Shown piece after piece: positions 17,428 to 19,507 of a stretch of 64,000 bases of DNA. The notes below the pieces were generated by a model. That model did no database searches, had not been told where the DNA came from, and was given only the letters and a program-made list of their open reading frames with translations. Every line of letters begins with the position of its first letter. Position 1 is the stretch's first letter. The position numbers were made by a program, and so were the translations under genes. This DNA is from Winogradskyella epiphytica (GTDB taxonomy: Bacteria > Bacteroidota > Bacteroidia > Flavobacteriales > Flavobacteriaceae), in assembly GCF_003217215.1 (NCBI RefSeq), contig NZ_QJTD01000001.1, forward strand, positions 62,001 through 126,000. The letters are read 5' to 3'.

Positions 17428-18246
17428 ATGATTATAGTAAAAACAGCAGAAGAAATTGAGTTAATGCGTCAAAGTGCGCTCATCGTGTCTAAAACCTTAG
17501 GGATGTTGGCTAAAGAGATTAAAGAAGGGGTTACCACCAACCATTTAGATGCTTTAGCTGAAGAATTTATACGAGACCATGGCGCTGTACCAGGTTTTAA
17601 AGGACTTTATGACTGCCCTTCTACCCTATTATGTAGTGTAAACGAAGCAGTAGTTCATGGATTACCAACCGATATCCCATTAAAAGATGGTGATATTGTA
17701 TCTGTTGATTGCGGTGCTTTAATGAATGAATTTTACGGTGATCATGCTTATACTTTTGAAATTGGTAATGTAGATGAAGAGACTAAAAAATTAATTCGTA
17801 TTACTAAAGAATCACTTTACATTGGTATTGAACAACTGAAAGTTGGCAATCGTGTTGGTGATGTTGGTTTTGCTATTCAACAATATTGTGAAGCCGAAGG
17901 TTATGGTGTAGTTAGAGAATTAGTCGGTCATGGAATTGGAAGAAAAATGCACGAAGATCCTGAAATGCCAAACTACGGAAAACGTGGACGTGGTAAAAAG
18001 TTTATCGAAGGTATGGTGGTTGCCATTGAACCTATGATCAATTTAGGAACTCATAAAGTGAAACAATTAAGCGATGGCTGGACGATTGTAACCCAAGACG
18101 GAAAGCCAAGTGTACATTTTGAACATGATGTTGCGATTGTAGAGGGTAAACCTGAGATTCTTTCAACCTTTGCTTATGTGCATGAAGCTTTAGGTATTGT
18201 TTCGGATGAGGAGGATGCTTTTCGTAAAGTGCCTTTAGTTATTTAG
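17428..18246 (+). CDS. map: Methionine aminopeptidase, type I
   Basis: 272 residues. Removes initiator methionine from nascent proteins. Metal-binding segments are all present: VDCGALMNEFYGDHAYTF (two Asp), GHGIGRKMHEDP (His), AIEPMI (Glu) and HFEHDVAI (Glu). It lacks an N-terminal zinc-finger extension, as in E. coli, and has a few extra C-terminal residues. The gene is followed within 7 bases by the CACAGAG repeat array of the GxxExxY unit. Confidence 0.97.
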   Translation: MIIVKTAEEIELMRQSALIVSKTLGMLAKEIKEGVTTNHLDALAEEFIRDHGAVPGFKGLYDCPSTLLCSVNEAVVHGLPTDIPLKDGDIVSVDCGALMNEFYGDHAYTFEIGNVDEETKKLIRITKESLYIGIEQLKVGNRVGDVGFAIQQYCEAEGYGVVRELVGHGIGRKMHEDPEMPNYGKRGRGKKFIEGMVVAIEPMINLGTHKVKQLSDGWTIVTQDGKPSVHFEHDVAIVEGKPEILSTFAYVHEALGIVSDEEDAFRKVPLVI

Positions 18247-18252
18247 CTATTT

Positions 18253-18290
18253 CACAGAGCATCACAGAGTTTTCGCGGAGATTCACAGCG
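18253..18290 (+). repeat. Left repeat array of the GxxExxY unit
   Basis: Four 7-nt units start at 18253 (CACAGAG), 18263 (CACAGAG), 18274 (CGCGGAG) and 18284 (CACAGCG), a 10-11-nt period close to one helical turn. They mirror the array at 18698-18734 in inverted orientation, so the two frame the ORF between them. Visible directly in the sequence. Confidence 0.85.
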
Positions 18291-18313
18291 TCTTTTTTGA
18301 ATCCTTTTAAGAT

Positions 18314-18694
18314 ATGAATTATAATAAGATAACAGAGAATATCATTGGAGCTGCTATCGAAGTACACAAAGCATTAGGTCCTGGTTTGTTAGAGTCGGCT
18401 TATCAGAAATGTTTGTTTTATGAATTAGATTCATTAGGATACTCGATTAAAAAAGAAATCACTCTACCAATAACTTATAAGCAGTTAACATTAGATCATG
18501 GATATCGAATTGATTTACTTGTTGAAAATAAAATTGTTATTGAATTAAAGAATGTTGAAAAGTTCACAGATGTCCACACTGCTCAAATATTGACATATAT
18601 GAAGTTAGGAAATTACCCTATAGGTTTATTATTTAATTTTAATACTAAACTTTTGAAAAATGGAATTAAAAGGTTTATAAACACATCAGAATAA
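18314..18694 (+). CDS. GxxExxY protein (PD-(D/E)XK nuclease-like fold)
   Basis: 126 residues. The namesake motif is Gly24-x-x-Glu27-x-x-Tyr30 in GPGLLESAY. Further on, Asp67 (YRIDLLV), Glu77-x-Lys79 (VIELK) and Gln91 in HTAQILTYMKL reproduce the order of a PD-(D/E)XK nuclease core, so a metal-dependent nuclease-like fold is plausible. No cellular role is established for the family that I know of. The ORF fills the space between two inverted arrays of short repeats, and the unit sits in the gap between map and a methyltransferase gene. It looks like a self-contained inserted cassette. Confidence 0.85.
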   Translation: MNYNKITENIIGAAIEVHKALGPGLLESAYQKCLFYELDSLGYSIKKEITLPITYKQLTLDHGYRIDLLVENKIVIELKNVEKFTDVHTAQILTYMKLGNYPIGLLFNFNTKLLKNGIKRFINTSE

Positions 18695-18697
18695 GCG

Positions 18698-18734
18698 CTC
18701 CGTGATTCTCTGTGTGCCTTTGTGCATCTCTGAG
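18698..18734 (+). repeat. Right repeat array of the GxxExxY unit
   Basis: Units CTCCGTG (18698), CTCTGTG (18708), CTTTGTG (18718) and CTCTGAG (18728) occur at an exact 10-nt period, starting three bases after the ORF stop. On the minus strand they read CACGGAG, CACAGAG, CACAAAG and CTCAGAG, i.e. the inverted counterpart of 18253-18290. The next gene starts 8 bases later. Confidence 0.85.
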
Positions 18735-18742
18735 TAATAACA

Positions 18743-19507
18743 ATGAAAAAACTCTTTAAATTTATTCTCAACACCATCCCAAGACCGCTATTAATCAGGC
18801 TAAGCTACATCGCACGCCCTATTCTAGCCTTCTTTTTAAAAGGTGATTCATTTACAGACCCTATTGATGGTAAAAGTTTTAAAACCTTTTTACCTTATGG
18901 CTACGGCAATCAAAGGAATAACGTTCTATCGCCTTCAACATTAAGCTTAGAGCGTCATAGATTATTATGGTTGTATCTTTCTAATTCCACAGATTTCTTT
19001 ACTGCTCAAAAGAAAGTTCTTCATTTCGCTCCAGAACAATGTTTCTTAAAACGATTTAGAAGTTTAAAAAACATAGACTATACTACGACCGACTTACTAT
19101 CACCTATTGCTGATGTGAAAGCGGATATCTGCGACCTTCCCTTTGAAGACAATAGCTATGATATTATTCTTTGCAATCATGTCTTAGAACATATCCCTGA
19201 CGATACTAAGGCGATGCAAGAGCTATACCGAGTGATGAAACCTGGAGGCTATGGAATTTTTCAGATTCCACAAGATATGAATCGTGCCGAAACTTTTGAA
19301 GATAATAGCATTACAGACAAAGCCGAACGCGCTAAAATATTCGGGCAATATGACCATGTTCGCGTGTATGGACGTGATTATTTTGATAAGCTGAGACGTA
19401 TGGGTTTTAAAGTGGAAGAAGTCGATTACACCACTACTCTTTCCGATGAAGAAATTGAAAAATACTGCTTAGCCAAGGGAGAAATTATCCCCGTGGTTTA
19501 TAAATAA
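18743..19507 (+). CDS. Class I SAM-dependent methyltransferase
   Basis: 254 residues. The SAM fold is seen as VLHFAPEQ (motif I, degenerate: FAPE in place of the glycine-rich loop), DICDLPFEDNSYDIILCNHVLEHIPDD (motifs II-III) and LYRVMKPGG. A hydrophobic, basic N-terminus (1-35) might contact membrane. Acceptor unknown. The degenerate glycine loop is typical of a subgroup annotated only as methyltransferase. Its start codon lies 8 bases beyond the GxxExxY repeat array. Confidence 0.8.
   Translation: MKKLFKFILNTIPRPLLIRLSYIARPILAFFLKGDSFTDPIDGKSFKTFLPYGYGNQRNNVLSPSTLSLERHRLLWLYLSNSTDFFTAQKKVLHFAPEQCFLKRFRSLKNIDYTTTDLLSPIADVKADICDLPFEDNSYDIILCNHVLEHIPDDTKAMQELYRVMKPGGYGIFQIPQDMNRAETFEDNSITDKAERAKIFGQYDHVRVYGRDYFDKLRRMGFKVEEVDYTTTLSDEEIEKYCLAKGEIIPVVYK

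Follow-up and report, generated by a model that had tools for sequence, protein, structure and literature searches.

Homing endonuclease genes encode a nuclease, are accompanied by precise empty sites and show a preference for particular sites. REP sequences, as described in one study, are mostly intergenic, and the presence of the TnpA-REP gene, which is mostly single-copy, is often correlated with REP abundance (PMC8266576). A second study reports that most REP doublets have an inverted orientation, that every RAYT examined had a REP next to it and that RAYTs sharing a genome almost never cluster (PMC3116915). The intervening sequence (IVS) of the 23S rRNA gene is called a selfish genetic element in a further report, and has a 28-bp nearly perfect stem lying inside that gene (PMC4990558).

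Here we describe a cassette of approximately 0.5 kb (array, gene, array) found in the window, by which we mean the whole 64-kb stretch of DNA analysed, from a Winogradskyella genome of 3.38 Mb in 47 contigs with a single match to the GxxExxY family. The original prediction, made from the sequence of the window, was of a self-contained GxxExxY cassette filling the gap between map and a methyltransferase gene with 6–8 bases to spare on each side. All eight of the proposed array units were confirmed in the sequence, namely CACAGAG at 18253 and 18263, CGCGGAG at 18274 and CACAGCG at 18284 on the left, and CTCCGTG at 18698, CTCTGTG at 18708, CTTTGTG at 18718 and CTCTGAG at 18728 on the right, with the units at 18284 and 18728 being off-consensus. 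The spare bases were also as predicted, with 6 nt between the map stop (18246) and the left array and 8 nt between the right array and the methyltransferase start (18743). A strict two-unit pattern matched in the 64-kb window at the two cassette arms only. An ORF and profile search found no transposase inside the window cassette, and the sole ORF of at least 80 aa was the GxxExxY gene (Table 1).

Table 1. Features of the GxxExxY cassette and its junction, in window coordinates.
Feature	Position	Strand	Observation
Whole cassette, map stop to methyltransferase start	18247..18742	+	Absent in empty sites
Left array, four units, steps 10-11-10	18253..18290	+	Read in the sequence; pattern family-wide
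GxxExxY gene, 126 aa, putative PD-(D/E)XK-type nuclease (D67, E77, K79, Q91)	18314..18694	+	
Right array, four inverted units, steps 10-10-10	18698..18734	-	Read in the sequence; pattern family-wide
4 nt beyond the outermost left unit	18249..18252	+	Inverted identity between cassette ends stops approximately here (93 loci)
4 nt beyond the outermost right unit	18735..18738	-	Inverted identity between cassette ends stops approximately here (93 loci)
map (type I methionyl aminopeptidase), flanking the insertion junction on the left	17428..18246	+	
Methyltransferase-domain gene, flanking the insertion junction on the right	18743..19507	+	

The encoded protein matched TIGR04256 (GxxExxY) with 147.1 bits (cut-off 35) and PF13366 (PDDEXK_3) with 142.2 bits (cut-off 22). 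Alignments of 58 and 53 rows showed that G22, G24, E27, Y30, D67, E77, K79, Y95, N108 and F109 are invariant and that Q91 is conserved in at least 90% of rows, in agreement with the PD-(D/E)XK-like core of Asp67, Glu77-x-Lys79 and Gln91 that had been proposed. The modelled fold (AlphaFold2, pLDDT 93.9, pTM 0.87) agrees with this core. A Foldseek search of the PDB with the model gave no match at E ≤ 0.001; the best solved match was SSO0001 (4ic1; Foldseek E 1.6e-3; VIA Z 9.6 over 101 residues, rmsd 4.3, 18% identity), which we take to be a Cas4, and Q91 and Y95 match the QxxxY motif. The second structural match was the restriction-endonuclease-like 3ijm (VIA Z 8.4), two chains were matched at Z ≥ 8, and many further PD-(D/E)XK enzymes were found at Z 6–7. 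In a viral library, the best match was to an unnamed protein (E 8e-10), followed by a PD-(D/E)XK nuclease of a Halogranum tailed virus (E 9e-9), and a sequence search of the PDB retrieved no relatives at E ≤ 10. The predicted fold is thus of the PD-(D/E)XK, RecB/Cas4 type, and we refer to the protein as a putative nuclease.

A first genome scan, from which the best 80 of 160 related loci were kept, nearly all of them labelled Bacteroidota, was extended by family, genus and plasmid searches to 136 distinct loci, 123 of which have intact ORFs. Loci were scored by a two-arm test based on the skeleton CRCNRAK, with at least two forward units upstream and at least two inverted units downstream, each within 200 nt. 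This test was passed by 106 of the 136 distinct GxxExxY loci and failed by 30, while the same skeleton read backward (mirror control) was found at 1/136. Units occurred in the opposite order at 13/136 loci. Summed over the 80 related loci, there were 209 forward units in the 100 nt before the start codon and 202 inverted units in the 100 nt after the stop codon, and counts in 100-nt bins further out were mostly 1–6 and at most 32 (forward units: 32 at 100–200 nt and 20 at 300–400 nt). A motif-free test gave 8.89 inverted shared 7-mers per locus against 3.96 when arms were mispaired across loci (n = 122; maximum of 4.77 in 200 shuffles), and control windows at the same loci gave 2.07 against 1.96 (n = 467). 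Homologous loci without arrays were few, with fewer than two units on both sides at 9/136. Inspection of array-poor loci by eye showed units that the skeleton had missed (CACAATG at L053 and L073, AGGATT at L108 and L111), and others appeared decayed. The observation that arrays frame GxxExxY genes is correct and general. The self-contained cassette with matching flanking arrays is a family-wide arrangement, with empty sites in congeners.

Copies outside Bacteroidota came from plasmid records only. A Gemmatimonadota plasmid has two copies, one with CGCAGAG arrays (L280) and one with CGCGGAT arrays seen only downstream (L400); a Sphingomonas plasmid copy has the left array only, and copies from Treponema and Fusobacteria have weak arrays. 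No clear array pair was seen at two Bacteroidota plasmid copies, from Prevotella (L283) and Persicobacter (L284). Carriage of the gene as phage or plasmid cargo was considered and rejected, with matches in 0 of 50,697 phage records (two queries, E ≤ 1e-5) and, for each of three queries, in an identical set of 8 among 72,556 plasmid records. A scan of IMG/VR with two peptide patterns, which sets a lower bound, found at least 4 GxxExxY loci, and a GxxExxY protein has been reported in one algal virus (PMC12085832).

The arrays fall into classes with units of the CACAGAG, CACAAAG, CGCAAAG, CACGAATT, CGCAGATT and CACGGATT types, among others, at steps of 8, 9 or 10 nt. In clades with CACAGAG or CACAAAG units, the units come in fours at 10-nt steps, the middle step being variable; there are also CACAAAG/CGCAAAG clades at 9-nt steps, CGCAAAG units at 8-8, and CACGAATT/CACTAATT and CGCAGATT units at 9-10. 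The CACAGAG type is referred to below as class A, the CACGAATT type as class B and the CGCAAAG type with 8-nt spacing as class C. The original prediction had suggested that the arrays could be nuclease-binding sites on one face of the helix, and we dropped this phasing in view of the 8- and 9-nt steps found in other clades. Within-pair spacing is the same in both arms at 76/78 loci (shuffled mean 38, maximum 56; 10,000 shuffles). The arms also share the letter at unit position 2 at 89/101 loci (maximum of 2,000 shuffles, 75), at position 5 at 82/101 (shuffle maximum 72) and at position 7 at 99/101 (maximum 87), whereas agreement at position 4 (63/101) lies inside the shuffles (68). On a tree of 123 proteins, which was built from few columns, with 17 of 120 inner branches starred and many forks unresolved, spacing labels change 8 times among 103 labelled rows, and letter labels, among 110 labelled rows, change twice at position 7, 7 times at position 2 and 12 times at position 5, these counts being given without a shuffled control. 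Judged by this sequence comparison, the array classes follow the protein tree, and arrays and protein thus appear to co-vary, for which the original prediction had proposed a check. The features conserved, class letters and pair spacing, are those expected if the arrays are read by a protein. Further kinds of array were seen at single loci, with CACATAG-like units on both sides of L355 (genome G131), and CACTGAT-type units at L267 (G013:C18:506.5–508.5k), where a decayed GxxExxY gene is accompanied by repeated C-terminal fragments.

The gap between map and the methyltransferase gene was then compared across the genus, where the methyltransferase was found in 59 of 60 genomes, our own included. 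Precise empty sites, with a gap of 0–10 nt and no array, were present in 16/59 genomes, so that the proposed check for such sites in relatives gave a positive answer; at one of them (L215) the map stop and the methyltransferase start overlap as TAATG. A GxxExxY gene of the CACAGAG class occupies the junction in 12/59 genomes, our own included (65–100% identity; L229 is decayed), and a GxxExxY gene of 35–39% identity lies there in CACGAATT/CACTAATT arrays in 5/59. Two genomes have remnants (L246 and L258) and the remaining 24 have other sequence. Among these junctions (L208–L266), other inserts of approximately 205, 326 and 800 nt were seen that are ORF-like. In a methyltransferase tree of 30 full-sequence loci, the empty L215 and the class-B L231 are sisters with support of 99/98, and the states A, B and none require 7 changes (shuffled mean 12.1, minimum 7). 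A TTAA is possible on both sides in this sister pair. In other genera, inspection by eye placed the map/methyltransferase junction downstream of copies with classes A, B, CACGGATT and CACAGATT, and a total of 40 loci have map and the methyltransferase gene as their two neighbours. At L104 (G171), the methyltransferase start codon (GTG) is apparently supplied by the right CACGAATT array. Sharing of both neighbours was found for 6/7 class-D loci and 8/12 class-C loci, with 9 of the latter sharing the downstream neighbour. The cassette is co-directional with both neighbours at 117/133 loci.

At a second junction, which lies at C7:84k of the window genome (L205), 30 of the 57 loci found were examined, and 7/30 were without the partner gene. 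The GxxExxY gene is present there at L294, L300 and L306, gene-less palindromes or arrays at L286 (our own), L288, L290, L291, L295 and L296, and small gaps at L299, L308, L310 and L313. Copies within one genome are distant from each other: identity does not exceed 62% among 34 pairs drawn from 15 genomes of the family, or 68% among 6 further pairs, and no recent whole-cassette jump within a genome was seen in these 34 + 6 pairs, fragment copies being left out. Two Winogradskyella genomes (G210 and G237) each have one CACAGAG-type and one CACAAAG-type copy. No consistent target duplication was found in 93 loci; the duplication counts that exceeded every shuffle were scattered, with 4-mers at offsets 1, 2, 4 and 6 and a few 2-, 6- and 8-mers. 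Four Winogradskyella loci at one junction (L002, L003, L004 and L011) show, by eye, two types of left arm and two of right arm in every possible pairing, which we read as recombination across the cassette between species. Among the options offered by the original prediction, the ends of a minimal mobile element remain the best fit, but neither a transposase nor a consistent target duplication nor close copies within a genome accompany them.

The distribution of gene-less blocks was determined in a family survey of 199 genomes (198 genera by tally), of which 41 carry TIGR04256 (a single match in 23, more than one in 18) and 158 do not. The pattern CRCARAGNNNCRCARAG gave 210 matches in the 41 gene-carrying genomes (5.12 per genome, counting those in gene flanks; 0.17 for the mirror control) against 14 in the 158 gene-free genomes (0.089 per genome; mirror control 0.108). 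At least three CACAGAG-type matches were present in 13/41 gene-carrying and 0/158 gene-free genomes (p = 2.1e-10), 28 of the 41 having fewer than three class-A matches, and the corresponding figures were 8/41 against 1/158 for the class B pattern and 7/41 against 1/158 for class C. We also compared genomes by the class of their own gene, with classes assigned by eye from the flanks. Three or more class-A matches occurred in 6/12 genomes with a class-A gene or remnant, 7/29 with other classes only (p = 0.15) and 0/158 without the gene. For class B, with gene flanks removed, the threshold of three was reached in 4/5 genomes with the own class, 4/36 with others and 1/158 gene-free genomes (p = 0.003, own versus other), and a threshold of five in 2/5 against 3/36 (p = 0.1). 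For class C, at least five matches were found in 3/11 own, 0/30 other and 0/158 gene-free genomes (p = 0.015), and at least three in 3/11 against 2/30 (p = 0.11). Loose blocks therefore track the GxxExxY family, and the coupling to the own class is partial, with classes B and C suggestive on small numbers. Two genomes (G000 and G084) have class-B matches without a class-B gene, and blocks without a gene of their own class need either past gene loss or cross-recognition.

Of the 33 matches in the window genome, 2 lie beside the gene and the other 31 are spread over eight stretches that were retrieved; none of the 31 loose matches lies inside an ORF of at least 100 aa, though such ORFs make up 61% of these stretches. 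The blocks keep the 10-11-10 arrangement, with triples of 11-10 (21) and 10-11 (18) and none of 10-10, 9-11 or 8-8, whereas blocks in two other genomes (L271 and L276) have 10-10 instead. The original prediction had asked whether arrays occur equally often without the gene. They do exist without an adjacent gene, but three or more matches were found essentially only in genomes that carry GxxExxY. The loose CACAGAG blocks of the window genome (L200–L207; C1:125–137k, C1:863–867k, C2, C7, C10 and C14) cluster with TTTTCAC, CCCTAAT, GAAGCTAG, CTAACAA and CTCACCG repeats, several of which resemble arrays of four-helix-bundle genes. Some of these clusters lie near contig ends (C2, C10 and C14) and may break assemblies. 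At L202 (C2:80.8–81.4k), a unit of approximately 168 bp that holds inverted-orientation blocks is repeated in tandem, a local amplification of blocks.

We propose that the flanking inverted blocks of three to four short units may be cis sites of the encoded PD-(D/E)XK protein, which would read the class letters, with position 4 free, in unit pairs whose step (8, 9 or 10 nt) depends on the clade. The array, gene and array would come and go as a single piece that prefers junctions of packed co-directional genes. Cutting at or near the units, followed by repair, would disperse the blocks and, less often, the cassette itself, in a REP/RAYT- or homing-like manner. By analogy, the putative nuclease and its cognate arrays would form a mobile pair that works like REP/RAYT with an unrelated enzyme, a reading that we hold to be slightly more probable than not; our confidence had been somewhat further above an even chance and was lowered because of the class-A coupling result (p = 0.15). 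The cassette and its arrays look like an undescribed minimal mobile unit.

The arms could alternatively act at the level of RNA, as in a ribosomal intervening sequence, by forming an interrupted stem in a polycistronic transcript that RNase III cuts, leaving the operon unharmed, with the nuclease as cargo; a long RNA stem had been among the options of the original prediction. The co-directional placement of the gene at 117/133 loci would suit this, as would the cassette anatomy shared by four-helix-bundle genes of TIGR02436, which we take to be the family of the 23S rRNA IVS protein. Within spacing classes, true arm pairs have lower duplex energies than mispaired arms, most clearly in class 10AGG (n = 34; -47.6 against -42.3 kcal/mol), where 0 of 5000 permutations, with row and column effects removed, reached the observed value; the numbers for the other classes were 118 (10AAG), 67 (8GAG), 399 (9AAG, weak) and 3350 (9AAT, n = 5, no excess). 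The arms do not, however, match place by place. In 39 loci of the 10-nt class, linker identity at the same place is 0.414 between arms of one locus and 0.413 between different loci, identity at position 4 is 0.545 for the same place and 0.511 for other places within a locus, against 0.480 for the same place between loci, and middle spacing is equal between arms in 16/39. In 14 loci of the 9-nt class, linkers give 0.277 within a locus and 0.305 between loci, with equal middle spacing in 2/14. What agrees between arms is the choice of letter throughout a locus, at position 5 in the 10-nt class (0.73–0.76 against 0.56–0.58) and at position 2 in the 9-nt class (0.66–0.71 against 0.41). Two coarser place-by-place pairing tests had the same negative outcome. 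Because these tests fail, we attribute the excess in energy to letters that a locus has in common throughout, and keep the stem as a rival explanation. The arms are alike as a class and not base by base, which favours a protein reader over an RNA stem, and loose blocks in a single orientation also exist. We consider the RNA-level account unlikely.

Homing alone would have the nuclease cut array-free junction alleles, with the cassette copied in by recombination and the arrays as by-products or operators. The linkage of class and site among class-D and class-C loci and the 40 map/methyltransferase loci speak for this, as do the distant relationship of copies within a genome and the combinations of arm types, seen by eye, that indicate recombination at the four Winogradskyella loci. 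It leaves the family-tied dispersed blocks and the coupling between arms unexplained, however, and one junction is used by several classes; we regard it as improbable. If instead the gene had landed in pre-existing degenerate repeats, its association with arrays would come from a hot spot of insertion common to both. Repeat-rich junctions like C7:84k, where one species has loose blocks and another the gene, and the lack of a clear link between class-A blocks and class-A genes could be understood in this way, but the empty map/methyltransferase sites are wholly array-free, array class is coupled to the protein and gene-free genomes are at background, so that this explanation is already disfavoured and has very little probability in our estimate. 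Nor do we give more than a slight chance to a domesticated regulator or genome-defence nuclease, with the arrays as operators and mobility secondary. The conserved catalytic residues and the occupation of one junction in several Flavobacteriaceae genera are compatible with such a role, whereas the patchy distribution (41/199 genomes), the decayed copies and the gain and loss at one site argue against it, as do the lack of any match in the 50,697 phage records and of a recurrent partner gene besides site-specific neighbours.

The preferred reading, of a putative nuclease paired with its arrays, has a parallel in the TIGR02436 four-helix-bundle genes, with 5 copies in the window genome (L366–L370). 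These and further loci (L366–L399) have inverted degenerate arrays of their own, for example of the GGTAGTT, GGTGATG and CTTCCAG types, and the motif-free test gave 4.68 inverted shared 7-mers against 1.85 for mispaired arms (maximum 3.00; n = 34). We tentatively raise the possibility, towards which we lean less than towards its opposite, of a general unrecognised minimal mobile element of bacteria that employs at least two unrelated folds (the PD-(D/E)XK fold of GxxExxY and that of TIGR02436) with fast-diversifying cognate inverted arrays, and from which a large part of the degenerate short repeats in intergenic DNA of Bacteroidota and beyond would stem. In the open literature, GxxExxY was met in two papers, in passing mentions only, and PF13366/PDDEXK_3 in one, and no long array strings or pairs of array 7-mers were found there; earlier mention elsewhere is possible. 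A widespread family named after a motif (TIGR04256/PF13366) thereby gains a concrete, testable partner in its own array. The results also suggest a possible origin for degenerate intergenic repeats of the CACAGAG, CACGAATT, CGCAGATT and CACGGATT types. Natural variation provides matched sets of protein class, unit letters and spacing, and recognition is testable by array swaps. Should the nuclease move the blocks, the pair would be a REP/RAYT-like system whose nuclease fold is not linked to such systems in the literature searched.

Comparison with known systems places the cassette near several of them. Cas4 proteins have four cysteines that bind an Fe-S cluster. GxxExxY shares with Cas4, RecB and lambda-exonuclease-type proteins the PD-(D/E)XK core, D...ExK plus Q91/Y95, but the 126-aa window protein has one cysteine only and so lacks the four-cysteine iron-sulphur site. 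Insertion sequences and DDE transposons carry a transposase inside the element, unlike the window cassette. The 23S rRNA IVS with the S23 ORF resembles the cassette in having a small ORF within inverted repeats, and differs in that the cassette lies between protein-coding genes and has arms that are alike in class and not complementary place by place. Homing endonuclease genes share with it a nuclease gene, precise empty alleles (here 16/59) and site preference, but the cassette has its own inverted arrays and gene-less blocks elsewhere, and no intron or intein was seen at it.

REPtrons show the closest likeness: a gene framed by cognate repeats (here at 106/136 loci against 1/136 in the control), repeats dispersed in intergenic DNA with inverted pairs as gene-less units, repeat abundance tied to the gene (here p = 2.1e-10, with p = 0.15 for matching class A), and several genes per genome that are not mutual closest relatives. 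More than one match per genome was found here in 18/41 genomes, a point on which the family differs from REPtrons. The REPtron enzyme is of the HUH type, whereas the ORF here has PDDEXK_3/GxxExxY, of PD-(D/E)XK type, as its only match and no H-hydrophobic-H motif. The REPtron repeat is a GTAG-tagged palindrome of 20–50 nt, whereas the repeat here is a CRCNRAK block of three to four short units at 8–11-nt steps, whose arms, unlike REPs, are not base-wise palindromes. REPtrons are thus the nearest system by anatomy, and the cassette is not a member of them because enzyme and repeat differ.
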